A DNA stretch of 40,112 nt from SAR202 cluster bacterium AC-647-P02_OGT_505m (lineage in GTDB: Bacteria > Chloroflexota > Dehalococcoidia > Lucifugimonadales > UBA826): NCBI GenBank assembly GCA_009391195.1, contig VEXB01000010.1, positions 1 to 40,112 on the forward strand, given 5' to 3'. The notes under the pieces are model-generated. The model was not told where the DNA came from, ran no database searches, and saw nothing but the letters and a program-made list of their open reading frames with translations. The position numbers were made by a program, and so were the translations under genes. Within the stretch, counting starts at the first letter, position 1; each line of letters starts with the position of its first letter. This document shows positions 1,163 to 36,184 of the stretch, in pieces.

Positions 1163-1276
1163 AAATTCCCCTATCTATTCCTTATCATTGCTTATGACTG
1201 CTCCCGAACCTTAAGATAGCACAAATAAATCCGGGTATTAGTGCTACAGAGTGTGGCTTGGGGAGAGATAAAACCG

Positions 1277-2885: not shown

Positions 2886-2939
2886 TCGCTAGAATAGCTG
2901 AAATCGATGACGTGGAACGATTGCTTATGGAGTGTGATG

Positions 2940-3941: not shown

Positions 3942-3994
3942 GTTTTGTTAACATCAGAGCTGTAGTGAAATACCGATGAGGATGGAGAAAATAT

Positions 3995-5422
3995 ATGGCC
4001 ACTCATGACAGAAAATTAGCAGCCCATTTGGCACGACGAGCAGGTTTCGGGGCAACTCCTGATGAATTGGATTACTACGAGTCTATGGCTTATGAGGACT
4101 TAGTCGATCATTTCTTGGATCGAGAAAGTATAGATCATGTCACGGACGATATGATCTACCGAAGGCATCCGAATATACATGCCCAACTTACACATAACCC
4201 AATGCACTGGGCCTACCGTATGCTCACTACCAATTCGCCTCTAGAAGAAAAGATTTCCTTATTCTGGCACGGCATTTTCGCCACAGCTGAACCGAAGATA
4301 AATAATTTTGGTGCTATCAACAACCAGATCACTATGTTCAGAGACAAAGGCCTAGAGAAATTTGACGATATTTTGATTGAACTATCCAAAGATCCCGCAA
4401 TGATCGTATGGCTTGATAATCAGACCAACCACAAAAACGAAATCAATGAGAACTACGGAAGGGAAATCTTAGAACTTTTTTCCATGGGTGTTGGTAACTA
4501 CACTGAGCAGGATATTAAGGAGTGTGCACGGGCATTCACGGGATGGACAATAAAAAACTCCGAATATATGGCTCTAATGGGAAATAAAGACTCTATTTGG
4601 CCGTATGGAAGAATTTTCTGGCACTTTGAATATGATGAGACCGACCACGACGGAGGAGAAAAAACTTTTCTGGGGGAAACTGGTAACTTCAATGGCGATG
4701 ACATAATACGGATCATCTGTAAGCAGGAAGCAACCGCTCAATTCGTATCGCGCCATATTTACAATTATTTCGTTGCTGACGAAGTACCTGTCCCACAATG
4801 GGGACATGTCCCCCCCAAAGACCCTGATGCCATAAACAAATTATCACAAGCCTATAGGGAATCGGATTATTCCATCAGGGAAATGCTTCGATTCTTGTTC
4901 AATTCTGATTTCTTCAAACAATCAAGATTCACCAGGATTAAAAGCCCTGCTGAATTTATAGTTAACACATTACGTTACACAAATGAGTTTAATGTTATTG
5001 ACGGGGCTGACAGCACTGTATACCAAGTAATGGAAGAAAGTGGTTTCATGGGCCAAAAGCTCACAAATCCCCCATCTGTGGAGGGGTGGCATACGGGTGA
5101 AGAATGGATCACAAGTGGGTCTCTTGTAGATAGAGTCAATTTTGCTAGTAAATATATTACGGATCTAGCCAACCCTGGCGTGGAAAAAATGGTGGCCCGC
5201 GTGGGCGAATCTATAAATGCTGAAACTAGCCCGACCGAGTTAGTGGATAAGTGCATTGCTATCTTAGGAGAATTGGAAGTTTCTCCTGACACCTATGATT
5301 CTCTTATGACAATAGCAGAACACGCTCATTCCGTGGACGGTAACTTTACGTCCAAACCGGAACCTATAATTACCAAGGCATTCCAAATCATATCTTCAAG
5401 TAAAGAGTTTCAACTTTGCTAA
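3995..5422 (+). CDS. DUF1800 family protein, copy 1
   Basis: A 475-residue DUF1800 protein of unknown biochemical function. The family hallmarks are all present: HLARRAGFGATPDEL at 11-25, the WHG motif at 91-93 (LFWHGIFAT), NENYGREILELFSMGVG at 151-167, ECARAFTGW at 176-184, and the C-terminal NPPSVEGW (358-365) followed by a leucine-rich end. It finishes with EFQLC, a C-terminal cysteine shared with copy 2. There is no recognisable Sec or Tat signal. The start ATG at 3995 follows GGAG with good spacing. It is probably co-transcribed with the NHL gene just upstream. Elsewhere DUF1800 proteins are often encoded beside DUF1501 proteins, but here no intact DUF1501 gene follows. Confidence 0.92.
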   Translation: MATHDRKLAAHLARRAGFGATPDELDYYESMAYEDLVDHFLDRESIDHVTDDMIYRRHPNIHAQLTHNPMHWAYRMLTTNSPLEEKISLFWHGIFATAEPKINNFGAINNQITMFRDKGLEKFDDILIELSKDPAMIVWLDNQTNHKNEINENYGREILELFSMGVGNYTEQDIKECARAFTGWTIKNSEYMALMGNKDSIWPYGRIFWHFEYDETDHDGGEKTFLGETGNFNGDDIIRIICKQEATAQFVSRHIYNYFVADEVPVPQWGHVPPKDPDAINKLSQAYRESDYSIREMLRFLFNSDFFKQSRFTRIKSPAEFIVNTLRYTNEFNVIDGADSTVYQVMEESGFMGQKLTNPPSVEGWHTGEEWITSGSLVDRVNFASKYITDLANPGVEKMVARVGESINAETSPTELVDKCIAILGELEVSPDTYDSLMTIAEHAHSVDGNFTSKPEPIITKAFQIISSSKEFQLC

Positions 5423-6981: not shown

Positions 6982-7196
6982 TTTGCCTCCCTAAATAACG
7001 AGTTAATTTAGTGTTTTCGTACTTATATTGAGTTACACAATACCGTAATTAAAAGAGAATCCTATGCCTAATATACAGGTAACTCTTCGATCGGTAATTG
7101 GTTGGGTTAGATACCAGAAACGAACCGAAATGTTATCCTTCGCCAATATTCGTGCAAGAAACATACATACCTGTGAATTTATATGGGATATCCCTC
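6982..7196. other. Divergent intergenic region
   Basis: This 215-base AT-rich gap separates the minus-strand hydroxyacid dehydrogenase from the plus-strand GMC oxidoreductase 2 and must hold both promoters. The sequence GAGTTAC occurs at 7030-7036 and its complement GTAACTC at 7079-7085, too far apart to be a convincing operator. I could not pick a good -35/-10 pair on either strand. Confidence 0.4.
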
Positions 7197-8765
7197 ATGA
7201 AATATGATTACATTATTGTCGGAGCCGGGTCAGCGGGAGCAATCCTGGCAACAAGACTAACTGAAAACCCGGATTTCTCAGTCCTTCTACTGGAAGCGGG
7301 TCCCGATTATCCAGACCTTGAATCTCTACCCGACGAGGTACGAATAGGTCTCTCCACTGGCGCAGATATTATTACGAAAGATCACAACTGGCAGTTTTGG
7401 GGAAATCCTTCACCAAAAGCAAGTCCGATGCCTGTTCCAAGAGGCCGGGTGATAGGGGGGTCAAGTTCTATTAACGGTCAAGTTTTCTTGCGAGGCATGC
7501 CTGAAGACTATGACACGTGGTATGAGATGGGAAACAATGAGTGGAGTTATGAGAAGGTCTTGCCATATTTTAGAAAGTTGGAAACTGACCTTGATTATTC
7601 AGGAGATTTTCATGGTAGTGACGGACCAATCATAGCCAGAAGGCATAAACGAGAAAATTGGATAGAATCTCAAGTGGCCTTTTATGATGCCTGTAAGGAC
7701 TCCGGGTTCCCCGACGGCCCAGATCAGAATCATCCGGATGTAACCGGTGTAGGACCGACTCCATTTAATAATCCGAATGGAATCAGGTGGAGCACGAATT
7801 TAGGCTATTTAACCATGTCTAGACATCGGCTTAATTTGACCATAAAGGCAAATTGCATCACCCAGAAAATCATATTCGATGGAACTTCTGCCTGCGGTGT
7901 GGAGGTTGAAAGTCAGGGTGAAAAATTCACTGTCTATGGAAATCAAATAATCCTAAGTGCAGGGGCAGTCGCTTCCCCTCAATTACTTATGTTGTCAGGT
8001 ATAGGTCCATCTGATCAGCTAACCTCATTAGGAATAAATGTTGTCAAAGATAATCCAGGAGTTGGTGGGAATCTTCGAGACCATCCAATAATGTCCGCTC
8101 TTTGGTCTGTTAAAAAAGAGCACATCCAGGACCCTGACGCTCCGCGTACACAAGTTGCGGCTCGCTACACGGCCACAGGTTCCGAAATACGAAATGATAT
8201 GAAGTTGACTCTCAATAGTTTTGCTATAGCCGACAGTCGCGTGGAAGATCGCTTAAGTGAGTCTCCTCAAAGCCATCATGCAGACATTAATACACCAATT
8301 GGAGTAAAAATTTCAGTCTCTCTACAATTGGCAGAAAGTGTGGGGCAACTACGGTTAGTCTCATCCGACGTTAATGAACAACCTGAACTAAATTTCAATT
8401 ATTACAGCACAGACTTCGATTTGGAACGGGGCCGTGAAGGAATGCGTAAAGCAGTTGACTTAGGTGAATCAAAACATTTCTCTAACATTATTAGCCAAAG
8501 GCTTCAACCAACCGATATAGATCTATCCAATGATCATGAACTTGATGACTGGATACTTAGAAACGCTACAACCGGCCAGCATATCTCCGGGACTTGCAAG
8601 ATGGGACCAGAGTCAGACGAACTAGCCGTTGTAAATCAGTTTGGTGACGTGAGAGGAACATCCAATCTAAAAGTTATTGATGCTTCCATCATGCCTGACT
8701 GTATCAGGGCCAATACAAACGCCACCACAATGATGATCGCAGAAAGAATGATAGATCTCATCTAA
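7197..8765 (+). CDS. GMC-family FAD oxidoreductase, paralog 2
   Basis: A 522-residue GMC oxidoreductase with the FAD-binding start MKYDYIIVGAGSAG, the signatures GRVIGGSSSINGQ and GAVASPQLLMLSGIGP, and the active-site pair H462 (HISGTCKMG) and N506 (ANTNAT). The reading frame is open 99 bases further upstream, but I use the ATG at 7197 because the two paralogs begin at the same point. The ribosome binding site is weak (GGGATA). The protein closely follows paralogs 1 and 3 over its whole length, and all three share LLLEAG(P/S)DYP/Q-type and CKMGP segments, so they arose from one ancestor. The stop codon sits inside a palindrome (see 8753-8775). The electron acceptor and substrate are unknown. 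Confidence 0.93.
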   Translation: MKYDYIIVGAGSAGAILATRLTENPDFSVLLLEAGPDYPDLESLPDEVRIGLSTGADIITKDHNWQFWGNPSPKASPMPVPRGRVIGGSSSINGQVFLRGMPEDYDTWYEMGNNEWSYEKVLPYFRKLETDLDYSGDFHGSDGPIIARRHKRENWIESQVAFYDACKDSGFPDGPDQNHPDVTGVGPTPFNNPNGIRWSTNLGYLTMSRHRLNLTIKANCITQKIIFDGTSACGVEVESQGEKFTVYGNQIILSAGAVASPQLLMLSGIGPSDQLTSLGINVVKDNPGVGGNLRDHPIMSALWSVKKEHIQDPDAPRTQVAARYTATGSEIRNDMKLTLNSFAIADSRVEDRLSESPQSHHADINTPIGVKISVSLQLAESVGQLRLVSSDVNEQPELNFNYYSTDFDLERGREGMRKAVDLGESKHFSNIISQRLQPTDIDLSNDHELDDWILRNATTGQHISGTCKMGPESDELAVVNQFGDVRGTSNLKVIDASIMPDCIRANTNATTMMIAERMIDLI

Positions 8766-14239: not shown

Positions 14240-15823
14240 ATGAAATATGACTACATAGTGGTAGGGGCTGGCTCGGCTGGAGCTATCATAGCTACGCGAC
14301 TGAGCGAAGACCCTTCGGTGTCAGTGCTTTTACTCGAAGCTGGAAGTGATTATCCCGATTTTCAGTCATTACCTGACAAATTTAAATATGGATATGGCCC
14401 AGAACTTCAAAACAAGCCTAATTGGTGGCTCGACCCAGGAGATGAGAAAAGATGGCTATATGTCGCCAAATCTACTGAGGAACAGGACCTACCAATGCTT
14501 GTCCCAAGAGGAAAGGGAATGGGAGGATCTAGTGCTGTCAACGCTCAGATATTTTTGAGAGGAGATCCAGAAGACTACGATACTTGGTCTGACAATGGAA
14601 ACGATGAATGGAGTTTTCAAAAATGTCTACCTGCCTTCAAGCGTCTGGAAAATGATACCGATATGGGGGGTGATTTTCACGGACACGAGGGCCCAATACG
14701 TGTGAGAAGACATCCAAAAAGTGAATGGACCCAGGATGCTAGTGCCTTTTATGAAGGTTTCCAGTCTTTGGGATTCCCTCCAACTGCCGACCATAACGAT
14801 CCTGACTCTACAGGGGTCGGACCCATGCCATTTAACACAATTGATAGAGTAAGACAGAGCACTTCACTAAATTATATAAATCCGGCCAGGAATCGTCTCA
14901 ATCTAACCCTACGGGGCGACTGTACCGTGCATAGGATACTTTTTGACAAAAATCGTGCGGTAGGTGTAGAGATTGAGAGTAAAGGGGAGATGTTTGAGGT
15001 ACTAGGTAACGAAGTAATTCTGAGCAGCGGCGCCATCGGGTCTCCCCAACTGTTAATGCTGTCAGGTATCGGGCCCAGAAACCACCTTGAAGAAAATGGA
15101 ATAGGCGTTGTTCGAGACTCGCCAGGTGTGGGGCAAAATCTAAGAGATCACCCACAGGTACGACTCATTTGGAAGGCAAAGGAGGACTACCAACATCATC
15201 GAGACGGCCGCATAAGGGGAGCAACAGTCGCGATCAGATATACCGCTAGTGGTTCAGATTTACACAACGACATGATGGTTCACCATACAGCTACTGTTCC
15301 ACAACGGTTTTACATGACCGACGGAGATGACATGTACCAGGGCGTGGGAATGACAGCCTGTCTATATCTGCAAGTCGGTTCGGGAGAGCTCACACTTCGC
15401 TCATCTGACCCCAAAATTCAGCCAATGCTCAACTACAACTATTACAGAGAAGAAGAAGATCTTAGAAGAATGAGGGAATGTGTGAGGCTATGTGCCGAAG
15501 TTGGAAGTGGTCCTTCATACTCAGCAATAGTGGCCAATCGCATTGAACCCAGCGACCAAGAGCTAAACGACGATGAAGCTTTAAATTTATGGATCAGGAA
15601 AAATGCCGTAACGAGCCATCACATCAGCAGTACCTGCAAGATGGGACCACCATCTGACCCCATGGCGGTAGTCGATCAGTATGGAAAAGTACATGGTACG
15701 AAAGGGCTGCGAGTGGGGGACGCATCGATAATGTACGACTGCGTTAGAGCCAACACCAACGTTCCATCAATGATGATAGGCGAGCGCATTGCAGAATTCA
15801 TAAAATTTGATAAACGTAAATAG
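14240..15823 (+). CDS. GMC-family FAD oxidoreductase, paralog 3
   Basis: A 527-residue GMC oxidoreductase beginning MKYDYIVVGAGSAG, with GKGMGGSSAVNAQ and GAIGSPQLLMLSGIGP signatures. The C-terminal active site reads HISSTCKMG, with H461 and N505 (ANTNVPS). Two features set it apart from paralogs 1 and 2: the usual HxxGT is HxxST, and the following DASIMYD has Y in place of P. There is also an N-terminal insertion around residues 55-85 (NWWLDPGDEKRWLYVAKS), so its pocket probably differs. The ATG follows AAGG. It is the second gene of a probable two-gene unit with the LLM monooxygenase upstream. Confidence 0.92.
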   Translation: MKYDYIVVGAGSAGAIIATRLSEDPSVSVLLLEAGSDYPDFQSLPDKFKYGYGPELQNKPNWWLDPGDEKRWLYVAKSTEEQDLPMLVPRGKGMGGSSAVNAQIFLRGDPEDYDTWSDNGNDEWSFQKCLPAFKRLENDTDMGGDFHGHEGPIRVRRHPKSEWTQDASAFYEGFQSLGFPPTADHNDPDSTGVGPMPFNTIDRVRQSTSLNYINPARNRLNLTLRGDCTVHRILFDKNRAVGVEIESKGEMFEVLGNEVILSSGAIGSPQLLMLSGIGPRNHLEENGIGVVRDSPGVGQNLRDHPQVRLIWKAKEDYQHHRDGRIRGATVAIRYTASGSDLHNDMMVHHTATVPQRFYMTDGDDMYQGVGMTACLYLQVGSGELTLRSSDPKIQPMLNYNYYREEEDLRRMRECVRLCAEVGSGPSYSAIVANRIEPSDQELNDDEALNLWIRKNAVTSHHISSTCKMGPPSDPMAVVDQYGKVHGTKGLRVGDASIMYDCVRANTNVPSMMIGERIAEFIKFDKRK

Positions 15824-15931: not shown

Positions 15932-18577
15932 GTGCTCTGTTCAGAATGTAACAATCAAATTCATCCGTATATGACATTCTGTCCCCACTGTGGGGTACGC
16001 ATAAAGAGCGATGTAGAGTCACCTCAACATCCAGAAGCAGAAACCAATAATCAAAAGCTATGCTCACAATGCGGGTTCGTGTCCGAGGCCTCACTTAGAT
16101 TTTGCGGATCATGCGGTAAAGAATTCGAAGATTCTAATGAAACCTCTCCTGAACCTCCTCCCTTGGAAGATCTTAAGGAGGAGGAAAACATGAAGTCTTG
16201 TCCAACATGTGACGAGCCCGTTAGACCCGAACTTTCTTTCTGCATATCCTGTGGCACAAATTTAATAACGTCAGAAAGATACACCGATCCAACGCAATCC
16301 ACGCCCAGTTCACTAGTATCGGCCCCAATAATGCTGAAAACTGAATCGCCACATTCAGGAAAGGAGAAATCACGAGCCTCTAATTTTAGCTGGACTGACA
16401 CGTTGAAAACGTTGTATTCGGAAAATGCCATGTCCTCTATACTCGGGCTGGGCATTTTACTGGTGACGATTGGATCTTTGGTGATTTTAGTGTCCATGTG
16501 GGAGGAGGAATCTAATCGCCCTTATCTAGTCCTTTTATCAGCCATTCAAGTTGCCGCATTCATCTTTGTGGGACACATGGTCAAAAATAGAATGAATCTT
16601 CACCTGTCCGGATTGGCCTTTATAACAATTGCGGCAGTCTGGGCCTTATTTACCTCAGGGGTCATCACCTATCTTGTATTTGACCCTATTTCTCCGAATC
16701 CGAAACTACCCGGAATTGATCTCGAAATACATTTGGAACCCAAGGCATGGCTAATGCTAGTGGCACTAGCTCTTCCATTATGGGGTTGCCTAAGTTACGT
16801 ATATAAGGGATATGTGTTGACACATGGTTCCCTTTTATTAGCTGGGATTGCTGTCTCTCTTATTGTCTTTGTCTTTGACAACGACTGGCAAAGTTGGGAA
16901 TGGTCTTACTTTTTCGCCGGAATATCAGTCGTTTACATATCTACAGGCATTGTTTGGAGAATCCGTGGTAATGACATAGTCAATGAGATCATATTTTCAT
17001 TTGGCAACGTGCTAGCCGCCTTAACCATACTTATTACTATTGGAGAGACGAACACCTGGGGCAAAGTTGTAATATTAGTCCTGGCTGGATTCTATTTCTT
17101 GACATCAGGCGCCACTGTAATCGAACTCGTATCGTCTAAAGTGCCTCTGTTACGAGGCCCAAAGCATCTGGTGAGTGTCTTCTGCCCAATGGCTCTAGGA
17201 GCTAGTGCACTTTCCCTAACGATTGCTTTTATTTCGGCGGCTATTTTATTGTCATTCGACTGGCAAATCAGTTTACTAGCCTTGACCTCATTGCTAACCG
17301 TAATCTCGGTTATCGCTATGATTTTCGCCAAGAGATGGTACTGGTTATACCCAGTCACAATCTTCGCCCACATATCGGCACTGTTGGCTATTACACTACC
17401 GCAAATTGGTATTGGAGATCCTCATACATATGGATTGATCACAATACCGATAGTCTCAATTTATATATTCTTTTTAACCTTTGCCTATAAAAAAGTGAAT
17501 CCTCGTACCGAGGGATACTCTAATTTTGTAGATCGTCGTCTTGCACCACTAGTCGCAATCGCATGCGTAGATGTGCTTGTAAGCATAATAGTGTCGGGAT
17601 GGTCTGACTGGTCAAACACTGAGGGCATTCTGGCTGCATCTGTATATACAATTATTACGGTAATAGTTTGTTATATATCGAAAAACAGATATGTGCCTTA
17701 TGCCACCACCGTCCTAGTAGCAATAACTAGTATGTTTTTGGTTGGAAACATAGGTGATGGTTCATGGACACTGCGAGCCGTTTGTTGGTCTATCCAAGGC
17801 CTTGCCTCATGGTGGATGGCTGCTGGGATAGGAAAATTGTCTGAGTCTTCAAACAGATCATGGCTGGAAATCTGGGAAACTCCTTTAAGACAAACCTCTA
17901 CCAGGTTTGCAATTGCCTCAACCATATTTGTAATTCTCGCTGTCATTCTAAGCTTGAGCGGTGAAAGTGACAGCGGATCTCACATCATCAACGCAACAAC
18001 TGTTGTGGCCATATTGGGACTCTTATATCTTGGTATAGGCATTACCAAGCGAGACACCAGATATGTCTATGTTTCAGCTGCTTCACTTATTCTAAGTTGG
18101 TATATACAAGCCGCAAACCAAGAATTTTCAGGCGTACATTTCTATGCTATACCTGCAGGACTCTACCTTCTTGGTTTGGCCTATTTCGAATATCGGCGAA
18201 CGTCGAGAATTAAATTTATTGCCCCAGTCTCCAATGCTCTTGCCATATTGATTCTTCCATTGTCTGCATTTCTACAGTCAATATATGAGAAACCCGAACT
18301 CCCTTATTTCTTTTTGTCGGGATTTGAGTCACTCCTCTTAATTTTTTGGGGGCTGTATTCTAAATCCAGAATAATTTTGATAGGAAGTTTGGCAACTTTT
18401 ACTATAAATCTCTTATGGAACCTAGGCCGATTACTGCCTGATATAGATGGTGCAGTGATTGCAATAACAATTGGTATTTTACTAATAGCAGTGGCAGTCA
18501 TCCTTGAGAGAATGAAAAAGCGAGTAGCCCAATCTGGGCGAGTATGGATTGAGCAGCTATCTGACTGGAACTGGTGA
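15932..18577 (+). CDS. Zinc-ribbon polytopic membrane protein
   Basis: An 881-residue protein of unknown function. The N terminus carries three zinc ribbons, each C-x2-C ... C-x2-C: residues about 3-21 (CSEC, CPHC), 44-61 (CSQC, CGSC) and 90-107 (CPTC, CISC). A low-complexity linker rich in Ser, Pro and Glu follows. From about residue 168 to the end there are roughly twenty hydrophobic membrane segments, interrupted by short loops. This arrangement resembles the zinc-ribbon, SCO7613-type or DUF2157-like large membrane proteins of Actinobacteria and Chloroflexota. The start is a GTG at 15932, with GAGG (15921-15924) seven bases before it. It has no obvious operon partner except the zinc-ribbon remnant after it. 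A transport, sensing or envelope role is open. Confidence 0.8.
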   Translation: MLCSECNNQIHPYMTFCPHCGVRIKSDVESPQHPEAETNNQKLCSQCGFVSEASLRFCGSCGKEFEDSNETSPEPPPLEDLKEEENMKSCPTCDEPVRPELSFCISCGTNLITSERYTDPTQSTPSSLVSAPIMLKTESPHSGKEKSRASNFSWTDTLKTLYSENAMSSILGLGILLVTIGSLVILVSMWEEESNRPYLVLLSAIQVAAFIFVGHMVKNRMNLHLSGLAFITIAAVWALFTSGVITYLVFDPISPNPKLPGIDLEIHLEPKAWLMLVALALPLWGCLSYVYKGYVLTHGSLLLAGIAVSLIVFVFDNDWQSWEWSYFFAGISVVYISTGIVWRIRGNDIVNEIIFSFGNVLAALTILITIGETNTWGKVVILVLAGFYFLTSGATVIELVSSKVPLLRGPKHLVSVFCPMALGASALSLTIAFISAAILLSFDWQISLLALTSLLTVISVIAMIFAKRWYWLYPVTIFAHISALLAITLPQIGIGDPHTYGLITIPIVSIYIFFLTFAYKKVNPRTEGYSNFVDRRLAPLVAIACVDVLVSIIVSGWSDWSNTEGILAASVYTIITVIVCYISKNRYVPYATTVLVAITSMFLVGNIGDGSWTLRAVCWSIQGLASWWMAAGIGKLSESSNRSWLEIWETPLRQTSTRFAIASTIFVILAVILSLSGESDSGSHIINATTVVAILGLLYLGIGITKRDTRYVYVSAASLILSWYIQAANQEFSGVHFYAIPAGLYLLGLAYFEYRRTSRIKFIAPVSNALAILILPLSAFLQSIYEKPELPYFFLSGFESLLLIFWGLYSKSRIILIGSLATFTINLLWNLGRLLPDIDGAVIAITIGILLIAVAVILERMKKRVAQSGRVWIEQLSDWNW

Positions 18578-27033: not shown

Positions 27034-28176
27034 TCAACAGTAACTTGTTGAGGTAACTTGATTTTTCTTAATGTATTCCCAGTCGTATTCGACTCCCAAC
27101 CCTGGCCCTTCGGGTACCGATACACATCCCTGATCGTCAATTGAATTGAGATCATCTGAATATCCATTTACGTAGACCGGTACAGCGCTTGGTGGGGCTT
27201 CTGGATGAAGAAGAGCCATTTCATAGTAGTTGCTGTTTCTAAGAGATGCCATCACGTGGCGATGAGCAGGACCGCAGTTATGTATTTCAGCATCCAGACC
27301 AAACCCTTCAGCCGCATGCCCAATTTTCATGGCTCCAGTTATTCCACCGTCGAAATCAGGATCCACTCGAATTAAGTCTGTTCCACCAGATTTCATAAAA
27401 TTTACATTGGGTTCAAGCATTCGGACATGCTCTCCTTGAAGGAGTGGGGTTTTAATGAGCGATTTCAGCTGAAAGTGTCCATGCGAGGAAATTCCTCCAT
27501 CACTATATGGATCCTCGTACCATAAGTAGTTCGCCTCATCACAAGCCTGTCCTACTTTGAGGGCATCTAAGAATGTTCGGTAATTGCATGCTGGATCTAT
27601 CATCAAATCCATATCGTCCCCAACGGCGGACCTAACAGCCATGACGGTTTTGATATCCAAATCAATATTTTCCCCTTTTATGGGATGAATTTTGAAGCCG
27701 GGATAACCAAGTTCCTTACACTGGATAGCAAAGTCTGCATAGGCTTCTGGGGTTCCTAAGGCGGTGCCTATCTCCCCCTGATAAGTACTGGCGTAGGTAG
27801 GTAGTTTTTTTCTGTATCCGCCTAATAATTCATAAACGGGGGACCCGTAAAACTTACCTGCTATATCCCACAGGGCTATATCCAAAACCCCCATGCTGAG
27901 AAAACCAATCTGTCTCGTGGCTAGTTTGGAAATAGTGTAAATTTTTTCCCGCTCAAGAGGATTAAGGCCCATGAGGTTTGAGGCGTAGTGACGGAGGCCA
28001 GCGTATTCAGACGGATGCCTACCGACATATTCACCTGTTATTCCTAAATTGGTATGGATTCTGATTCCACCAAGAATTCTCCAATAACCGCTTCCGTCAC
28101 CCATGCTGGGCCGCCCCAATTCGCAGTTGAATTCAAGTACCTCTATCTTGGTTATATTAATCTTGTCTGTCGGCAT
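27034..28176 (-). CDS. Enolase-superfamily (mandelate racemase-like) enzyme 3
   Basis: A 380-residue mandelate racemase-like enzyme. Candidate residues: K162 and H164 (FKIHP), metal ligands D194 (MIDPACNY), E221 (WYEDPY) and E249 (QGEHV), and H299 (AEIHNCG). The K-x-H pair, and HNCGPAHRH after the last strand, resemble enzyme 2 more than the galactonate-dehydratase-like enzyme 1, so the two are from another branch. The C terminus GLGVEYDWEYIKKN is also shared in kind with enzyme 2 (GLGIEFNWDYIQDN). The GGT-like gene follows 49 bases downstream in the same direction, so a shared transcript is likely. The substrate is unknown. Confidence 0.9.
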   Translation of the reverse strand: MPTDKINITKIEVLEFNCELGRPSMGDGSGYWRILGGIRIHTNLGITGEYVGRHPSEYAGLRHYASNLMGLNPLEREKIYTISKLATRQIGFLSMGVLDIALWDIAGKFYGSPVYELLGGYRKKLPTYASTYQGEIGTALGTPEAYADFAIQCKELGYPGFKIHPIKGENIDLDIKTVMAVRSAVGDDMDLMIDPACNYRTFLDALKVGQACDEANYLWYEDPYSDGGISSHGHFQLKSLIKTPLLQGEHVRMLEPNVNFMKSGGTDLIRVDPDFDGGITGAMKIGHAAEGFGLDAEIHNCGPAHRHVMASLRNSNYYEMALLHPEAPPSAVPVYVNGYSDDLNSIDDQGCVSVPEGPGLGVEYDWEYIKKNQVTSTSYC

Positions 28177-28330: not shown

Positions 28331-29770
28331 CTAACAGAGCTGGTATTCTCGACTGGATACCATAAATTCCAGCACTCTTAAGATAGTGTCATCTTCGATT
28401 GGAATTTTGGCATCCTTGCCCTTTACCTGAACTTCCTCTTGAGAAAAAAGGTCAAGTACACCTTCAGTAGTGTCTTCTGAAATTCTGGTTATACCAACAG
28501 AATTCCCACAAGATTCAATCAATTCGCCTACGGTGTGGGCATCATCCCTCAGGTCAGTGCGAATTCTGTCAACGATATGTTTAACTCCATCGTTATCAGG
28601 ATTACCAATATGCTGGGAAGCAAAATTCACCCTATCTACAAGGGCACCGCTAGATATCCATTCCTCCCCGGTATGCCATCCTTCCACGGACGGTGGATTA
28701 CATAAAGCCTGTCCCATATAGTCAGATTCAGCGATGACTCCAAAAATGCTGGAATCAACTTTCGAATCATCGTTATATTCTCCACTCAGGCGAAGCGTTC
28801 CAATAACAAGTTCAACCGGACTTTTAATTTTCTGATATCGAGACTCCTTGAAAAAATTTGATGTCAGGAGGACTCTCAAAACAGATTTGATGTCATGATC
28901 GTATTCAAAATATGCTTCAACTAATGTGTCTATTGCTGCGGGATCGCGAGGCGGGGTGTCTTTCCACTGTGGCACTGGCACTTCATCGGCTACAAAAAAA
29001 TTGTACATATGCCTTGCAATAAATCTTGCAGTCGCTTTCTGACTACAAATAATCCGAATTACGTCATCCCCATTAAATGGTCCCTGCTCACCAAGGAATT
29101 CTTTGGTGTCGACATCGTGTATCCCGGGTTTAAAGTCGTAATGCCAAACTATTCTCCCATAAGGCCAAATAGAATCTTTTTGGGCCATGAGGGACATATA
29201 CTCTGAATTAGCCACTGACCATCCTGTAAATGCCCTGGCACACTCTTTTATGTCATCTTCCGTATAGTTCCCAACACCCATTGAAAATAATTCCAGAATC
29301 TCTCTTCCATAATTCTCATTAATCGATTCGTTGAGATTGTCCTGATTATCCAACCAGATTAGCATCGCAGGATCTTGGGACAGCTCAAGTAGGAGATCGT
29401 CAAACTTACCTGTACCTGACCTCCTAAACATCTCGATTTGATTCAACAAGGACCTAAGGTTATTAAGTTTTGAATTCCCTGTTGCAAAAATCCCATGCCA
29501 AAATAGTGACATCTTTTCCTCAAGTGGAGATTTCGTAGAAATCATGCGATAGGCCCAGTATGCAGGCACCCCACTCCTCGATGCATGAAGATCTACATGG
29601 TCACGAAAAATTACGTCATCAGGTATATGTGAAGATTCCTTGGAACCAAGCAAATTCTCCACTAAGTCTTCATAGGCTATTCCCGTACAAGAATCCAGTT
29701 CATCAGGAGTTATACCAAAACCAGCTCGATTCATCAGATGAATTACCAATTCTGTGTCAATGCTTACCAT
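28331..29770 (-). CDS. DUF1800 family protein, copy 2
   Basis: A 479-residue DUF1800 protein with the same landmarks as copy 1: HLMNRAGFGITPDEL near the N terminus, LFWHGIFAT, NENYGREILELFSMGVGNYT, ECARAFTGW and NPPSVEGWHTGEEW. The end reads SSREYQLC, again with a terminal cysteine. No signal peptide is visible. It follows NHL copy 2 by 48 bases in the same direction, the same order as copy 1. GGGAG precedes the ATG. Copies 1 and 2 look closer to each other than to copy 3, consistent with a duplication of the two-gene unit. Confidence 0.92.
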   Translation of the reverse strand: MVSIDTELVIHLMNRAGFGITPDELDSCTGIAYEDLVENLLGSKESSHIPDDVIFRDHVDLHASRSGVPAYWAYRMISTKSPLEEKMSLFWHGIFATGNSKLNNLRSLLNQIEMFRRSGTGKFDDLLLELSQDPAMLIWLDNQDNLNESINENYGREILELFSMGVGNYTEDDIKECARAFTGWSVANSEYMSLMAQKDSIWPYGRIVWHYDFKPGIHDVDTKEFLGEQGPFNGDDVIRIICSQKATARFIARHMYNFFVADEVPVPQWKDTPPRDPAAIDTLVEAYFEYDHDIKSVLRVLLTSNFFKESRYQKIKSPVELVIGTLRLSGEYNDDSKVDSSIFGVIAESDYMGQALCNPPSVEGWHTGEEWISSGALVDRVNFASQHIGNPDNDGVKHIVDRIRTDLRDDAHTVGELIESCGNSVGITRISEDTTEGVLDLFSQEEVQVKGKDAKIPIEDDTILRVLEFMVSSREYQLC

Positions 29771-29818
29771 GAGAATGCTCCCTAGTTAGAGGTTACTAAT
29801 AAATCTGAAACGCTATTT

Positions 29819-30841
29819 TTAACTCGCTGGCTCAAATACCTGAATCCTGTGCCTGCTGTGTTCTGTAACGTATAGCTGATTCTCTGAATCAAACTTAACT
29901 GAAACAGGCCCCCAAAATTTATGTTCGGTCTGCGAAGCTTCATGATAGGCATTTTTCAAGTGATCCGGAAGATCCAGAACTTTTAAATCCGCCCTATTCC
30001 TGGCCTCCCTCTCGTCCAAATTCACGTCTAGCCACTCATGGGACCACTTGGAAAGTGTCGCTTCACCTTCTAACACGTTTATCACTGAGCCTGCGTTATC
30101 CAGTATCTGTACTCTCTCGTTCCCCCAATCAGCCACTGCAACGTTGAGATTGGCATCTACCGCTACTGAAGAGGGCCTGTGGAACTGTCCAACGCCTCTC
30201 CCAGACTCCCCGTAAGTTTTTAAAAAAATTCCTTCAGAATCAAATTTCTGAATGCGATCATTTCTCCAATCTGCAACATATAGATCGCCTTGAGAATCTA
30301 CATCCATACCCCACGGCATTGAGAACTCACCAGGCCCGCCACCAGTACCCCCCCATTCCTTCACAACTCTTCCCTCTGGAGTTAGTTTCTGGATTAGATT
30401 TAAATAACGCGATGAAACATAGATGAAATCGCCAGAATCAATAGCTATACCGGCCGGACCAAACCGGTCCCCATTACCCTGGCTATCAGAGTCCAATTTA
30501 ATGGATCGTTGAAATTTTCCTTCACTATTAAAAATTTTTATTTCATCGGTAGCTTCGTCAGTAACATGAAGTTGGTCACTATTGTCAAAGGCCAAGGTGA
30601 CTGGTCTGGTAAATTTTGCCTCATCATCCTCAAGAGGATTGCCAAACTCGCCAATCCAATCCTCTTCATACGTGAAATATTGAATTCGCGTTCCCATTCG
30701 AGTAGCTGAATTGGAGCGGTTCAAAAGATATATAGTTCTGGATTTCCCGAGATCCTCCTTGATAGCGATATCATAAGGAAAATTGAACCCTCTCCCGACT
30801 GGTTGATTACTATTTATACCTATCGTTTTAACAGTTTTCAT
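29819..30841 (-). CDS. NHL-repeat beta-propeller protein, copy 2
   Basis: A 340-residue NHL-repeat propeller protein. The first residues, MKTVKTIGINSNQPVGRGFN, match the start chosen for copy 1. Repeats carry LYVADWRNDRIQKFD and VAVADWGNERVQILD. The same non-NHL insert is present at about 29899-30071 on this strand (GEATLSKWSHEWLDV to HKFWGPVSV), and the last repeat ends RHRIQVFE. The ribosome site is weak. The 183-base gap upstream separates it from the MFS carrier. It is probably the first gene of a two-gene unit with DUF1800 copy 2. Confidence 0.9.
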   Translation of the reverse strand: MKTVKTIGINSNQPVGRGFNFPYDIAIKEDLGKSRTIYLLNRSNSATRMGTRIQYFTYEEDWIGEFGNPLEDDEAKFTRPVTLAFDNSDQLHVTDEATDEIKIFNSEGKFQRSIKLDSDSQGNGDRFGPAGIAIDSGDFIYVSSRYLNLIQKLTPEGRVVKEWGGTGGGPGEFSMPWGMDVDSQGDLYVADWRNDRIQKFDSEGIFLKTYGESGRGVGQFHRPSSVAVDANLNVAVADWGNERVQILDNAGSVINVLEGEATLSKWSHEWLDVNLDEREARNRADLKVLDLPDHLKNAYHEASQTEHKFWGPVSVKFDSENQLYVTEHSRHRIQVFEPAS

Positions 30842-31008: not shown

Positions 31009-31025
31009 ATTGAGAATAACTCAAT
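31009..31025 (-). terminator. Weak stem-loop after the MFS gene
   Basis: ATTGAG (31009-31014) and CTCAAT (31020-31025) can pair across a five-base loop directly after the stop codon of the minus-strand MFS gene. On that strand the stem is followed by ATTAAAATTT. The stem is short and AT-rich, so this is a low-confidence terminator. Confidence 0.3.
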
Positions 31026-32326
31026 CATTTTTGAGGAATTTCGATTCCAATAGCAGTCTTGACAGGTCTCTTGGCAAGAACTATCAAAAAAGTGGCTACG
31101 ATGTAAGAGGCTACTGAAAAAAGAAAAAGCGTTTCATATCCATTAGTCATCTTGAACATAAATGCTCCTAGAGTCGGTCCCAAACCAAGACCCAGGATCT
31201 GAAATGGACCTATGATGCCAGCAATAGTTCCATAGGAATTACGACCATAATAGCTTGCCAACAACATTCCACCAAGTACTTCAAGTCCACCACTAGACGT
31301 TCCCCAAAGTAACACTAATCCAAATGCTAATTTAATGTCATTCACTAATAAGAATAGAAAGGTTGCCACTATGACGGAAGGTAATCCAACAAACATCAGT
31401 CGCCTGGGAGAATACTTATCAGACATAAATCCCCAGAATGGGTGAGAAAAAGAATCCAGGACGGAGGTTAGGCTCCAGGCCAATGCTGCCAAGGGAAGCG
31501 ACAAGCCCAAGTAATTTAAGAAAGGAACTAATTGAAAACTTACATTTCCGAGGGTAAGTATTATTAAAAACTGGGAAATACCTATGAGCCAAAGTGCTTT
31601 GGTCTTCATCGCCTCAGAAGAGGTCCAACTAATCTCTTCATTGATTTGCGGCTGTCCTTCCTTTTCACTTGTTTTAATAGGATCAGCACTAACTCCATCG
31701 GGCAAGAGTCCAATTTCTTCAGGAGCCTTTCTCATGAATAAAATCAATGGAATAGACAACAAAACAGAATAGATACCAATAACCCGATAACCTGTTCTCC
31801 AACTAGATCGAATGGCAAGCAGCGAAATGATTTGAACATTTATCGCCCCATAGAAGGGTCTCGCCATCGATATAAGTCCTAATGCAAGATTCCTCCATCT
31901 ATAAAAGAAATTCACCGCAACAGTTCTTGGCATAACACTTATAAGGACTGGCGTACCTATTCCTCGCGCTATAACGTAGGCAGCGGAAAACTGCCATAAC
32001 GTGGATGCTCCTGCTAAAAAATAGAAGCAAATCCCAATTATGATGGCCGCGATTGGCATAAATAATCTCGGGCCCTTCCTGTCGGCGAAATAGCCAACCA
32101 AGGGAGTTAAAATACCAGCCGTCCAGGTTCCTATAGTCACCCCAATAGCTAGGGATTCCCTATCCCAACCCGTTTCGGCCAATATAAAACTCTGTACCCC
32201 GGCAAGTGTGACTTGGGCAGAACCTGTAGAAGCGAACGTCCCCAGAGAAGCCACACCCAAAATTATCCATCCGTAATATATTTTGGTTTTAGGGGTCCAT
32301 CTCCTTAAATCTCTAAAAGTTTGCAT
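31025..32326 (-). CDS. MFS transporter, monocarboxylate/oxalate-formate-like
   Basis: A 433-residue major facilitator superfamily carrier with about 12 membrane segments. The start YYGWIILGVASLGTFAS and the loop GYFADRKGPRLFM are typical of the monocarboxylate (MCT) and oxalate/formate (OFA) type importers; a central cytoplasmic loop follows segment 6 (around PDGVSADPIKTSEKEG). It is the last gene of the stretch DUF1800-NHL-DUF1501-MFS, 120 bases after DUF1501, with a terminator-like hairpin in between. It may import an organic acid related to the module's substrate, but this is not shown by the sequence. Confidence 0.88.
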   Translation of the reverse strand: MQTFRDLRRWTPKTKIYYGWIILGVASLGTFASTGSAQVTLAGVQSFILAETGWDRESLAIGVTIGTWTAGILTPLVGYFADRKGPRLFMPIAAIIIGICFYFLAGASTLWQFSAAYVIARGIGTPVLISVMPRTVAVNFFYRWRNLALGLISMARPFYGAINVQIISLLAIRSSWRTGYRVIGIYSVLLSIPLILFMRKAPEEIGLLPDGVSADPIKTSEKEGQPQINEEISWTSSEAMKTKALWLIGISQFLIILTLGNVSFQLVPFLNYLGLSLPLAALAWSLTSVLDSFSHPFWGFMSDKYSPRRLMFVGLPSVIVATFLFLLVNDIKLAFGLVLLWGTSSGGLEVLGGMLLASYYGRNSYGTIAGIIGPFQILGLGLGPTLGAFMFKMTNGYETLFLFSVASYIVATFLIVLAKRPVKTAIGIEIPQK

Positions 32327-32446: not shown

Positions 32447-33592
32447 TCAGTTGGAAGTTAGGGGTGAAATAAACTCGTGTTGCTCATAATTTCCATTAGA
32501 CACTATGGCTGGGTCAACCTCTAACCATCTCTCAGCTATGGTCGAATAGATGCTGCGGAAATCGTTGTTAAAATGAAGATCCCCCTCAAGGTGATCACTC
32601 TCTTTCAGTGACGGATATTCACCATATAGCCCTCCGTTTACTGTTCCACCTATAACAAATGCTGTTCCCCCAGACCCATGGTCAGTCCCAGCCGAATTAT
32701 CTTTGATACGACGTCCAAATTCAGACCAAACCAATACGAGAACATCATCTTCCAGATTGTGCTCTTTCATATCTTCCATAAAATCGGCAATTGCGTCTGA
32801 AGTCTCGGTCCATAATCTAGTGTGAGTTTCTAACTCAGCCGCGTGAGTGTCAAAACTCCCGTGCTGAGTATAAAACACCCTAGTGCCTATATCCGCAGTA
32901 AGAACCTGAGCAATACTCTTCATGGATTGGGCGATCGGATTATTGGCATATTCAATAGCCGACGAATACTGTGCAGGAGCCGTCCTAAGTATATCGGCAC
33001 CTTTAAGTGCATCAATTCCCGTTTGTCCAATAAACTGCGCTACATTGTCATGTGCCATGGCGCTGCCATATATTTGAGAAAAAGCGCTTAATGTAAGGTC
33101 ACGTGACCGTTCACCCTGTATGTCTGGAAACAATCCATAATTTTCTAGATCACTAACTGAAGCAACTGGCACGCCCCTACAGGACAATGCCCTAGGTAAA
33201 CCCTTACCGAAATTCACGCCTGCAATAGGGTTTTCACCATTTGGGTCAATTTCCCTTAAAGCGCGTCCCAACCAGCCAGAGTCACCGATTCCGACAGACT
33301 CTCCAGTATTCCATATATCAATTGAACGGAAATGAGACCTATTAGGTTCCGGGTAGCCTACACCATTTATTACAGCAACTTTTTCATGGTCCCACAGGTT
33401 TTTGATCGACTTAAGAGCAGGATTTAAACCTAACTGGTTATTGATTTTAAGAACTCTGTCCTGCTCTATACGAACTTCTTTTCTCCAATCGTAGTAGAGA
33501 CCATCCCCGTACGGGATCACGGTATTAAGGGCGTCATTCCCGCCGCTAAGTTGGACGATCACTAAGGAACGGGGTTTCGTTTCTGTTACCAT
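32447..33592 (-). CDS. DUF1501 family protein (alkaline-phosphatase-like fold)
   Basis: A 381-residue DUF1501 protein, related in fold to alkaline phosphatases and sulfatases; the substrate is unknown. Likely metal/active-site positions: GGND at 17-20, SHF at 86-88, FDTH at 247-250, SEFGRR at 290-295 and TDHGSGG at 303-309. Most DUF1501 proteins start with a twin-arginine signal peptide, but this one begins directly at the first strand of the fold (MVTETKPRSLVIVQLSGGND), after a good GAGGAG ribosome site, so it appears to stay in the cytoplasm. It is the third gene of a tight run with DUF1800 copy 3 and NHL copy 3 (gaps 63 and 57 bases). Confidence 0.9.
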   Translation of the reverse strand: MVTETKPRSLVIVQLSGGNDALNTVIPYGDGLYYDWRKEVRIEQDRVLKINNQLGLNPALKSIKNLWDHEKVAVINGVGYPEPNRSHFRSIDIWNTGESVGIGDSGWLGRALREIDPNGENPIAGVNFGKGLPRALSCRGVPVASVSDLENYGLFPDIQGERSRDLTLSAFSQIYGSAMAHDNVAQFIGQTGIDALKGADILRTAPAQYSSAIEYANNPIAQSMKSIAQVLTADIGTRVFYTQHGSFDTHAAELETHTRLWTETSDAIADFMEDMKEHNLEDDVLVLVWSEFGRRIKDNSAGTDHGSGGTAFVIGGTVNGGLYGEYPSLKESDHLEGDLHFNNDFRSIYSTIAERWLEVDPAIVSNGNYEQHEFISPLTSN

Positions 33593-33649
33593 TTAAAGTC
33601 TCCTCACTAGCCCTCTAAACAACTACTTTATTTTATGCGATATAGCCTT

Positions 33650-34681
33650 TTAATTATCTCTCTCGAACACTTGAATACGATGTCTATTTGTTTCAGTTAT
33701 GAAAAGTCGGTCCTCAGCATCTAGCATAAGAGACACAGGTCCCCAAAAAAGTTTTTCTATATGCGATGATTCTTCATGAGGGTCGTCATTAAAATACTCT
33801 ATATCTGGCTCTAGATTGGCACGTTTCCTAGCACCGGCTTCCTCCACATTCACCCCCAAAAAATCCTCAGCCCATTCAGAATTGGTAGCTTGACCCCGGA
33901 TTTTTTGTACGAATTCTCCGTCGGGGCTCAATACTTGTACCCTCTCGTTTCCCCAGTCGGCCACATATATATATCCCTCCTGATTCACTATGACACCAGC
34001 AGGTCTCGTAAATTCTCCCTCCTCTCGGCCAGGAGAACCATACTTTGCTACAAACTCACCATTAGGAGTAAATCTCTGGATGCGGTCGTTACCCCAGTCC
34101 GCTACAAAAATCTCACCTTCTTGGTTTACTCCCAGACCCCATGGTAAGTTCAAGCACCCGTCTCCACTACCGTATTCACCGAAGGATTTGACGAATTCCC
34201 CATCACTCGTAAATTTTTGGATTCTGTGGTTTCTGGAATCTGCTATTAATACATTGTTATCTCGATCAAAGACTATTCCAGATGGACCATTAAGCATTCC
34301 CTCCATTTCCCCCTCAGATCCCCAATGCTTTAGAAACTCACCTGACTCATTGAAAACGGAAACGCGATTGAGATATTCGTCGGTTACAAATACGCGATTC
34401 TGATCGTTTACTGCGATACCACAGGGCCATCTAAACTGACCGTCCCCGATTCCAGCACTCCCAAACACGCCAAAATACTCCCCATCCTCGTTTAGCATCG
34501 TGACCCTCATGCTGTCAGAGACAGCTCTTTCAAACGACCTGCTAAGAACATAGAGGCGGCCACCATCATTAGACATTGCCGAGTCAATCGGATAATAGAA
34601 CCCACGCCCACGCATAGTAGTCATTCCGACCGTTCGAACATATCTCAAAAACTGTCCTTGTTCTAATCCTTTAGTCGCCAT
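33650..34681 (-). CDS. NHL-repeat beta-propeller protein, copy 3
   Basis: A 343-residue NHL-repeat propeller protein, with clearer repeat units than copies 1 and 2, e.g. VLIADSRNHRIQKF, IFVADWGNDRIQRF and IYVADWGNERVQVL, each about 47 residues. The non-NHL insert is present at about 33732-33898 but diverged (RGQATNSEWAEDFLGV to EKLFWGPVSL), and the protein again ends in RHRIQVFE. The insert keeps Trp, Asp/Glu and the FWGPVS end. Start ATG follows AAAGGAG. It sits between DUF1800 copy 3 and DUF1501, so this cluster has DUF1800 first, unlike the other two. Confidence 0.92.
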   Translation of the reverse strand: MATKGLEQGQFLRYVRTVGMTTMRGRGFYYPIDSAMSNDGGRLYVLSRSFERAVSDSMRVTMLNEDGEYFGVFGSAGIGDGQFRWPCGIAVNDQNRVFVTDEYLNRVSVFNESGEFLKHWGSEGEMEGMLNGPSGIVFDRDNNVLIADSRNHRIQKFTSDGEFVKSFGEYGSGDGCLNLPWGLGVNQEGEIFVADWGNDRIQRFTPNGEFVAKYGSPGREEGEFTRPAGVIVNQEGYIYVADWGNERVQVLSPDGEFVQKIRGQATNSEWAEDFLGVNVEEAGARKRANLEPDIEYFNDDPHEESSHIEKLFWGPVSLMLDAEDRLFITETNRHRIQVFERDN

Positions 34682-34744
34682 ACTTCTCCTTTGAAAAGTT
34701 ACAGAGTCAACTGCTCTGATCCGCTGGCATCCCTCTACTTGAGG

Positions 34745-36184
34745 TTAAGCTCGTTGGAATTCAGGTGTCGATGCTATGAGTTTCACGACTCCAGCGATCT
34801 TCTCCTTGCCTACGTCATCGATTTCCTGGTCTATAACTCTTATAACTCCATTTTCAGAAGCATAGTCAACAAGCTTTGACCTCGTATCATCCTTGACGTT
34901 AATTGTTCCCAAATGTTTAAGGCATATGTCAATAATGCGGTCTGCCTCAACCTCCCCATTCCCTTCAAAAGCTATTTTGCTGAACAATTCTTTTGACCCA
35001 GGAGTTTCTAGCTTGCCAAGTTCTTCAGAAGCAAAATTCATTCTCTCGACAAGAGCACCAGTGTCAATCCATGTTGTACCACCATCCCAACCCTCAACTG
35101 AGGGAGGATTACTTAACGTCTGACCCATGTACTGCATACGCAACTGTCTGCTCGAATGCTCGTATTGCGGTCGATCTACTGATTCAGTCAATCTCATGAC
35201 ACCAGTAACTAGCTCTGCCGGGCTTTTAACCTTCTCGTACCAGCAGTCTTCAGATTTAAAAAAGTCGGAGTTGAACACGAATTTCATTACTGACTTTATG
35301 TCGTAATTGCTGTCAAAATATGCCTGTACTATCTGGTTGATTGCCTCCGGATCTCTCGGAGGTTGATATGGCCACTGAGGGACTGGGGGCTCATCAGCGA
35401 CAAAAAAATGGTAGATATGCCGGGCTATAAAACGAGCTGTCGCCTCTTGCTCACAGATAATTTCAACTATGTCTTCGCCGTTGAAATTACCTTTGCGACC
35501 AAGAAATTCTTTTTCACCATCATCGTGGTCCTGAGCATCAAATTCGTAATGCCAAGAAATACGACCGTAAGGCCAATCGGAGTCACGTGCAGAACGTAAC
35601 TCCATATATTCACAATTACCAATTGTCCATCCGGTAAAAGCCCGAGCACATTCTTTCACATCATCTTCCGTGTAATTGCCAACTCCCATGGAAAAAAGTT
35701 CCAAGAGTTCTCTACCGAAATTCTCGTTAATGGAATCTTTGTGATTTTGTTGGTTATCAAGCCATATGATCATGGCGGGATCTCGCGCCATCTCTACAAG
35801 CAGATCTCTAAAATCCCCCATTGCGTACTTTTTGAACATACGTATTTGGTCTGAGAGGGGTTTGGCGTTAAGCACCTTAGGATAACCGGTAGCAAAAATA
35901 CCATGCCAGAAGAGAGTCATTTTCTCCAGTAGTGGGGCATCCGTAGTAATCATTCGATAAAGCCATGCTTCTAAACCGCTCAATCCGGCCAGCATGCTGG
36001 ATTCATCGGGGTGATACCTCCGTATAAGGTATTCGGACATCCATTGAGGACTGGATGTTTCTAAGAGTTTGTCTACAGTACCCTCGTAACCTATCTTGCC
36101 GTACTCTTCAAGCTCTTCTCTGGTGGCACCAAATCCGGCTCTTCGTGCTAGGTGAGCAATCAACTCTATTTGACTTTCAGGCAT
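34745..36184 (-). CDS. DUF1800 family protein, copy 3
   Basis: A 479-residue DUF1800 protein. Landmarks: HLARRAGFGATREEL at the start, LFWHGIFATGYPK, NENFGRELLELFSMGVGNYT, ECARAFTGW and NPPSVEGWDGGTTW. Its end, STPEFQRA, lacks the terminal cysteine of copies 1 and 2. No signal peptide is visible. AAAGGAGG precedes the ATG, the strongest ribosome site of the module. It heads the unit DUF1800-NHL-DUF1501 and is divergent from the ABC binding protein across 195 bases, where both promoters must lie. Confidence 0.92.
   Translation of the reverse strand: MPESQIELIAHLARRAGFGATREELEEYGKIGYEGTVDKLLETSSPQWMSEYLIRRYHPDESSMLAGLSGLEAWLYRMITTDAPLLEKMTLFWHGIFATGYPKVLNAKPLSDQIRMFKKYAMGDFRDLLVEMARDPAMIIWLDNQQNHKDSINENFGRELLELFSMGVGNYTEDDVKECARAFTGWTIGNCEYMELRSARDSDWPYGRISWHYEFDAQDHDDGEKEFLGRKGNFNGEDIVEIICEQEATARFIARHIYHFFVADEPPVPQWPYQPPRDPEAINQIVQAYFDSNYDIKSVMKFVFNSDFFKSEDCWYEKVKSPAELVTGVMRLTESVDRPQYEHSSRQLRMQYMGQTLSNPPSVEGWDGGTTWIDTGALVERMNFASEELGKLETPGSKELFSKIAFEGNGEVEADRIIDICLKHLGTINVKDDTRSKLVDYASENGVIRVIDQEIDDVGKEKIAGVVKLIASTPEFQRA

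Follow-up and report, generated by a model that had tools for sequence, protein, structure and literature searches.

A repeated DUF1800–NHL propeller cassette with an optional DUF1501 gene in a SAR202 genome

Three adjacent minus-strand genes at 32,447–36,184 of a 40,112-nucleotide stretch of contig VEXB01000010.1 (the window; SAR202 cluster bacterium AC-647-P02_OGT_505m, GenBank assembly GCA_009391195.1) encode a DUF1800 protein, an NHL beta-propeller and a DUF1501 protein, in that order. The DUF1800 and NHL genes are the fixed core of a cassette that is repeated in this genome and in its relatives, and DUF1501 is an optional part. The best reading of the cassette is that of a leaderless, NHL-dependent offshoot of the widespread exported DUF1800–DUF1501 pair. 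As a functional model we tentatively favour, with somewhat less than even confidence, a set of at least ten paralogous cytoplasmic DUF1800 plus NHL cassettes, the locus being one of them, with DUF1501 as an optional addition and a substrate-specialised catabolic mechanism.

Heterotrophic SAR202 bacteria abound in the ocean and are considered to oxidise refractory dissolved organic matter, an activity of which their paralogue expansions are regarded as the record. The three cassette families presumably correspond to COG3391, COG4102 and COG5267. A correlated expansion of these COGs in SAR202, i.e. of the same three families expanded together as here, was reported as uncharacterised (Saw et al. 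2020, PMC6946804); in the text of that paper it occupies one sentence and a figure, without operon, function, invariant DUF1800–NHL pairing, leader analysis or cassette-wise diversification. The original prediction of an undescribed three-protein system needs qualifying for the co-expansion and stands, as far as that text extends, for the operon and its function. Already known, then, are this co-expansion and the DUF1800–DUF1501 operon (PMC5122149), the two families being known to occur together in many bacteria; apparently new are the NHL core pairing, the leaderless form and the diversification of cassettes as units. No description of these three was found in the open-access literature, the scope of the search (subscription papers and supplements lay outside it).

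Linkage and joint diversification of the cassette genes

In the cassette at 32,447–36,184 (cassette C), the genes for DUF1800 (34,745–36,184; 479 aa; PF08811, E 1.1e-104; the putative helical core subunit), NHL (33,650–34,681; 343 aa; PF01436, E 1.3e-37; 5 repeats and a late insert) and DUF1501 (32,447–33,592; 381 aa; PF07394, E 2.8e-28), all on the minus strand and all encoding proteins with no leader, are separated by exactly 63 (DUF1800/NHL) and 57 (NHL/DUF1501) bases. Direct reading of the sequence identified Shine-Dalgarno sites (AAGGAGG, AAAGGAGA and GAGGAGA) ~4–7 bases 5′ of each ATG. Families, strand, gene order, tight spacing and strong ribosome sites were thus as originally predicted. 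Two further cassettes, both lacking DUF1501, are found in the window: cassette A (2,907–5,422, plus strand), with an NHL paralogue (2,907–3,941; phmmer against the cassette C NHL protein, E 3.5e-86) followed by a DUF1800 paralogue (3,995–5,422), and cassette B (28,331–30,841, minus strand), with NHL at 29,819–30,841 (PF01436, E 4.4e-30) and DUF1800 at 28,331–29,770 (PF08811, E 5.1e-97).

The genome (1.37 Mb, 55.7% complete) contains ten DUF1800, five DUF1501 and ten full-length NHL genes of the insert-bearing type. Every DUF1800 neighbourhood was read, and all ten genes have a same-strand NHL gene, either adjoining or joined via DUF1501; all five DUF1501 genes sit in these DUF1800–NHL cassettes. 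More distant NHL-like genes (E worse than 1e-30) are not near any DUF1800: they sit on different contigs, except on contig C1, where the distance to the closest DUF1800 is ~26 kb. The end of one more NHL gene, 52% identical to the cassette C protein, is present at a contig edge (L039; G000:C11:1–150) and probably represents an eleventh cassette.

Beyond this genome, the NHL alignment was compared with contigs of 84,980 species genomes, yielding 581 confirmed loci, of which the best 80 were read; these are the loci closest to the query, and the linkage rate applies to them, not to remoter NHL types. A same-strand DUF1800 gene lies within 4 kb in 80/80 (within 500 bp in 70/80) and a same-strand DUF1501 gene within 3 kb in 48/80; the nearest NHL relatives are named Dehalococcoidia, Chloroflexi or SAR202. 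The original view of NHL as a fixed partner of DUF1800 is borne out by these loci and by the ten cassettes of the genome itself, NHL neighbours of DUF1800 being present well outside it. Starting from DUF1800 instead, 17/21 genomes (own plus relatives) carry the gene, in 3–18 copies each, and the own genome plus six relatives were read in detail, with operons defined by a fixed distance rule. Here 56/59 DUF1800 genes share one operon with NHL, the exceptions being two tandem DUF1800 copies (L057, L086) and a gene (L050) separated from NHL by ~2.1 kb, i.e. the pairing is near-universal in relatives. The median intergenic gap from DUF1800 to NHL is 34.5 bp. The tandem DUF1800 genes at L057 and L086 lie inside one cassette, a sign of ongoing duplication.

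Five architectures were recognised: 1800-NHL (49), 1501-1800-NHL (32), 1800-NHL-1501 (27), 1800-1501-NHL (24) and NHL-1800 (6), counts that include some loci entered twice. DUF1501 is missing from 5/10 cassettes here and from 52/134 overall, leaving the DUF1800–NHL pair as the core; the original placing of DUF1501 at the centre of a three-protein system is accordingly not upheld.

Cassettes also diversified as units. Pairwise distances between DUF1800 proteins correlate with those between NHL proteins of the same cassettes in Mantel tests with permutation p values, each carried out inside one genome (r 0.79, 10 cassettes, p 2e-4; r 0.71, 11 cassettes, p 2e-4; r 0.85, 18 cassettes, p 2e-4; r 0.52, 7 cassettes, p 0.012), and because the comparisons stay within single genomes, species history cannot confound these correlations. 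DUF1501 distances follow in the two larger sets (r 0.78–0.89; in genome G006, 0.85–0.89 against the other two proteins), and are not significantly correlated in the two smaller ones (4 and 5 cassettes). When mapped on a tree of DUF1800 from 134 cassettes, gene order shows 19 changes (68–76 in shuffles) and presence of DUF1501 shows 16 (37–44 in shuffles). Gene order is thus inherited, and together with the Mantel correlations these counts indicate that cassettes were duplicated and diverged as units, with DUF1501 repeatedly lost or gained.

Predicted folds and conserved residues of the three proteins

The DUF1800 protein matches PF08811 across the whole profile (351 bits, positions 1–419 of 419), over the curated cut-off, and its predicted model (pLDDT 84) is mostly helical. 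No PDB structure matched this model with E <0.001, and profiles of DUF1800 and DUF1501 gave nothing credible against PDB sequences. N153, E154, N155, R158, E159, E162 and D175 are invariant, canonical members included, and form a candidate active or metal site on the evidence of the alignment. Among viral structures, the sole match to the model was a DUF1800 homologue of an uncultured Caudovirales phage (BFVD A0A6J5M749, TM 0.70).

DUF1501 matches PF07394 with 99.6 bits (cut-off 27). Its model (pLDDT 79) is predicted to have the alpha/beta core fold of the alkaline phosphatase superfamily (sulfatases, lipoteichoic acid synthases, YejM): Foldseek against PDB matched many members with probability 1.00, the best being sulfatases, carrageenan sulfatases and lipoteichoic acid synthases (best E 7e-8), and Pfam Sulfatase is the only other family matched, weakly, by several members. 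However, TM-scores are low (0.3–0.44, ~10% identity) and the C/S-x-P/A-x-R formylglycine motif of sulfatases is absent, the aligned position reading RSHFRS, so that a named enzyme class is not assigned. Of the phosphatase/sulfatase-like hydrolase originally suggested, the fold is retained, a true sulfatase is unlikely, and absence of the motif makes a phosphatase or phosphodiesterase likelier. D20, S86, H87, D248, H250, D304 and H305 do not vary among the proteins compared (20 NHL-linked, 4 canonical); from their position in the fold, D20, D248, H250, D304 and H305 are putative metal ligands and S86 is a candidate nucleophile.

In the NHL protein (PF01436, 126 bits), the insert region (33,732–33,898, minus strand; residues about 262–317, RGQATNSEWAEDFLGVNVEE...FWGPVS, from alignments) proved real, as predicted, and partly conserved: across 134 operon NHLs its start is fully occupied, its middle is occupied in 81% and its ends are conserved, with S268, W270, N278 and R285 kept at 88–97%. 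The closest PDB profile matches are NHL propellers such as TRIM71, a likeness that reflects the NHL repeat, not RNA binding. Catalysis could instead lie with the propeller itself, as a lyase or lactonase in the manner of the Vgb, PAL and SMP-30 propellers, with DUF1800 as its activator or chaperone. We consider this unlikely, although NHL is as constant as DUF1800, its Pfam/NCBIfam matches include SGL, Vgb lyase and ScyF, PAL (3fvz, E 4e-20) and Vgb (2z2n, E 2.9e-11) are among its PDB profile matches, and growth of a SAR202 isolate is enhanced by lactones (PMC10444878). The SGL, Vgb, ScyF and PAL matches reflect NHL repeats in general, binding propellers rank best in PDB, and the invariant positions are mainly structural repeat residues (P, G, D, W, N, R). 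In the favoured model, the propeller would bind and DUF1800 would act on or position what is bound.

Remote kinship of DUF1800 was examined by comparing 24 proteins with Pfam at a lax threshold. Weak matches to PSD1 were obtained in 8 members (best E 0.0077) and to PSD2 in 6 (best E 1.6e-5), all below the Pfam cut-offs; Glyco_hydro_94 was matched in 2 members and every other family in one. In NHL-linked DUF1800s, the PSD1 match covers the same stretch (about 265–310) in the same register wherever positions were shown, and the PSD2 match (277–309) overlaps it. No PSD1 gene was found in 101 Chloroflexota genomes or 5 chosen records, a search in which control genomes likewise gave no match. In Planctomycetes, PSCyt genes are multi-copy and commonly lie next to families of unknown genes (PMC5615132), Rhodopirellula baltica having 41 copies (PMC2754498), PSCyt proteins have been linked to carbohydrate metabolism (PMC5615132, PMC2754498), and DUF1501 genes often neighbour WD40 propeller genes (PMC5587647). 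The planctomycete PSCyt2-PSD1 (DUF1549-DUF1553) and PSCyt3-PSD2 systems thus resemble the cassettes in copy number, in DUF1501 near propellers and in the weak PSD1/PSD2–DUF1800 similarity, but the cytochrome domain is absent here. This suggests that a propeller, a DUF1800/PSD-like protein and DUF1501 are a recurring combination. A PSD1/PSD2 link, if true, would connect the cassette with the multi-copy PSCyt proteins of Planctomycetes and Verrucomicrobia, which are just as enigmatic.

Leaderless cassettes and exported pairs

The canonical DUF1800–DUF1501 (COG5267–COG4102) pair consists of two of the families found here, adjacent and usually with DUF1800 first, and has in common with the cassettes DUF1800 residues N153, E154, N155, R158, E159 and E162 and all seven DUF1501 residues named above (D20 to H305). 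Pairs without NHL were collected from 24 loci: 7/7 annotated plasmid loci (Actinomycetota, Pseudomonadota, Acidobacteriota), 16 Chloroflexota loci, nearly all from other classes, and one locus in a record labelled Entotheonella. Most of these pairs have an export leader (Tat or Sec) on one or both proteins, a twin-arginine (Tat) or hydrophobic leader being recognised in 20/22 scored DUF1501 proteins, and no NHL gene was seen near these pairs in the stretches examined. In one of them, on a Sphingomonas plasmid (L168:1608–8349), a TonB receptor gene and a phosphatidylinositol phospholipase C-like gene lie directly upstream; a role tied to this phospholipase was rejected, this being a single case.

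In the NHL-linked cassettes, by contrast, NHL is constant, DUF1501 is optional, and fewer than 11 residues precede the conserved domain in 75/88 DUF1501, 122/146 DUF1800 and 121/144 NHL proteins; a leader-like segment was identified in 2/88 DUF1501s. All four leaderless DUF1501 loci of the phylum survey (L215, L216, L217, L220) have NHL. Of the features of the canonical pair, DUF1501 beside DUF1800 is found in cassette C (with NHL between) and in 5/10 cassettes overall, not in A or B, and export leaders are absent, the domains beginning at the N-terminus. The Entotheonella-labelled record (phylum Tectimicrobiota by its label) contains an exported pair that lacks NHL (L171) alongside five leaderless triads (the loci of this record being L171, L148, L176, L181, L185, L189 and L193), a coexistence that suggests either transfer between phyla or a wrong label. 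From this distribution, loss of export and gain of NHL go together, and the NHL-linked cassettes seem, from their N-termini, to work inside the cell rather than outside.

A less probable alternative again is that the cassette proteins leave the cytoplasm by an export route not recognised so far and function in the envelope, as Tat-exported pairs do. The leaders on most pairs without NHL mean that the ancestral place may be outside the membrane, but the short N-termini leave no room for a leader, and leader-bearing and leaderless forms coexist in the one Entotheonella record.

The cytoplasmic cassette we favour represents one SAR202 expansion, now with a definite minimal unit (DUF1800 plus NHL) and with contrast groups, i.e. 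exported pairs without NHL and the within-genome contrast of the Entotheonella record, making two old DUF families directly testable for function.

Proposed mechanism and genomic context

Built on the observed composition, fixed linkage, co-diversification, absence of leaders, predicted DUF1501 fold and kept ligand-like residues, the favoured model extends to co-transcription, complex formation, substrate class and reaction. The cassette genes would probably be translated from one mRNA, and DUF1800 and the propeller would form a stable intracellular complex in which the propeller, with its conserved insert, may bind and select a substrate or partner, while DUF1800, as the helical core, may act on or position what is bound. 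Where present, DUF1501 would add metal-dependent hydrolysis of a phosphate-type ester. Each cassette could, as a unit, have specialised in a compound of its own from the carbohydrate-like dissolved organic matter oxidised by these bacteria.

Genomic context contributes to the proposed substrate class. GMC oxidoreductase is the commonest extra same-strand neighbour (8/138 operons, cassette A included), followed among close neighbours by enolase-superfamily, second propeller, MFS, amidohydrolase-like and Zn-alcohol dehydrogenase genes, named from cluster membership and sequence reading (window genes by family scan). Fucose, rhamnose and their lactones and acids improve the growth of cultured SAR202 group I bacteria, whose enolase and dehydrogenase paralogues are assigned to non-phosphorylative pathways (PMC10444878). 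Catabolic neighbours and this growth make a role on carbohydrate-like substrates most likely, and the cassette probably functions in catabolism of carbohydrate-like organic matter. Even GMC oxidoreductase is too infrequent to be a fixed fourth gene, an idea that was rejected. Two apparent neighbour clusters (represented by L060:4807–7365:+ and L126:5710–6972:-) were set aside, as they consist of antisense reading frames that overlap cassette genes. In four operons, DUF1800–NHL is closely followed by a second, distinct propeller family (MRIG.G.YTYEW...; e.g. L058:11222–12238, L126:8289–9302).

Several points weigh against the favoured model. The neighbouring catabolic genes vary from operon to operon, and genes of this kind are plentiful all over SAR202 genomes, making context weak; the DUF1800–NHL complex is hypothetical; DUF1800 has no solved relative from which an activity could be assigned; DUF1501 is missing from half of the cassettes here, so hydrolysis is not essential to the core; and the candidate metal site and nucleophile of DUF1501 derive from alignment and fold.

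Somewhat more doubtful than an envelope location is that the module is not catabolic and assembles or synthesises a polymer or cell structure. Propellers are common as scaffolds, and chitin synthase shares operons with DUF1800–DUF1501 in Dickeya, Pectobacterium and Agrobacterium vitis (PMC5122149), but no glycosyltransferase was recognised among recurrent neighbours of NHL cassettes, and the 10–18 divergent paralogues of several genomes are better explained by varied substrates than by a single structure. Linkage without physical interaction, in a selfish or merely co-inherited block, is very improbable: cassettes also occur in records labelled Entotheonella and Proteobacteria and may move between phyla, but the partnership is kept through five gene orders, arguing for selection for the set, and the window contains no tRNA genes.

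Extending the favoured model, SAR202-type bacteria might possess a new kind of intracellular enzyme complex, with an NHL propeller gating the structurally unassigned DUF1800 fold and as many as 18 substrate-specialised copies in a genome, as a cytoplasmic counterpart of the planctomycete PSCyt/PSD–DUF1501 machinery, both belonging to one so far unrecognised superfamily of propeller-assisted enzymes for recalcitrant marine organic matter. We offer this as speculation, with the odds clearly against it.

In the window, cassettes C and B are part of an unbroken minus-strand run (36,184 to 24,498) of DUF1800, NHL, DUF1501, MFS, NHL, DUF1800, enolase-superfamily, gamma-glutamyltransferase and transglutaminase-like genes; several gaps are <130 bases, so the two cassettes may be co-transcribed. 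The MFS transporter between them (31,025–32,326, minus strand; PF07690, E 1.2e-39) is a possible carrier of the cassette substrate; MFS is a close same-strand neighbour in three operon placements, two of which are this gene. Downstream of cassette B is an enolase-superfamily (MR/MLE) enzyme gene (27,034–28,176, minus strand; PF13378, E 1.3e-38), and 82 bases upstream of cassette A a GMC oxidoreductase gene (1,241–2,824, plus strand; PF00732, E 8.7e-49); a luciferase-like FMN monooxygenase is also encoded in the window. Together with the names of the nearest NHL relatives, the enolase-superfamily, FMN monooxygenase and GMC oxidoreductase genes point to a position in or near the SAR202 clade.

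The terminator-like hairpin predicted 3′ of DUF1501 is present (32,438–32,422, minus strand; 6-bp stem, tail TTCTTCTT), but it is weak and at chance level: folding of the stretch does not exceed that of shuffles (z 0.22), terminator-like sites occur at background rate (5 found vs 4.6 ± 2.2 in shuffles), and a terminator was rejected as support for operon structure. The 881-aa protein encoded at 15,932–18,577 has zinc ribbons at its N-terminus and a long hydrophobic part that looks multi-pass; beyond the ribbons it matches no family. Three GMC oxidoreductase paralogues (1,241–2,824, 7,098–8,765 and 14,240–15,823) share a 15-kb part of the window.

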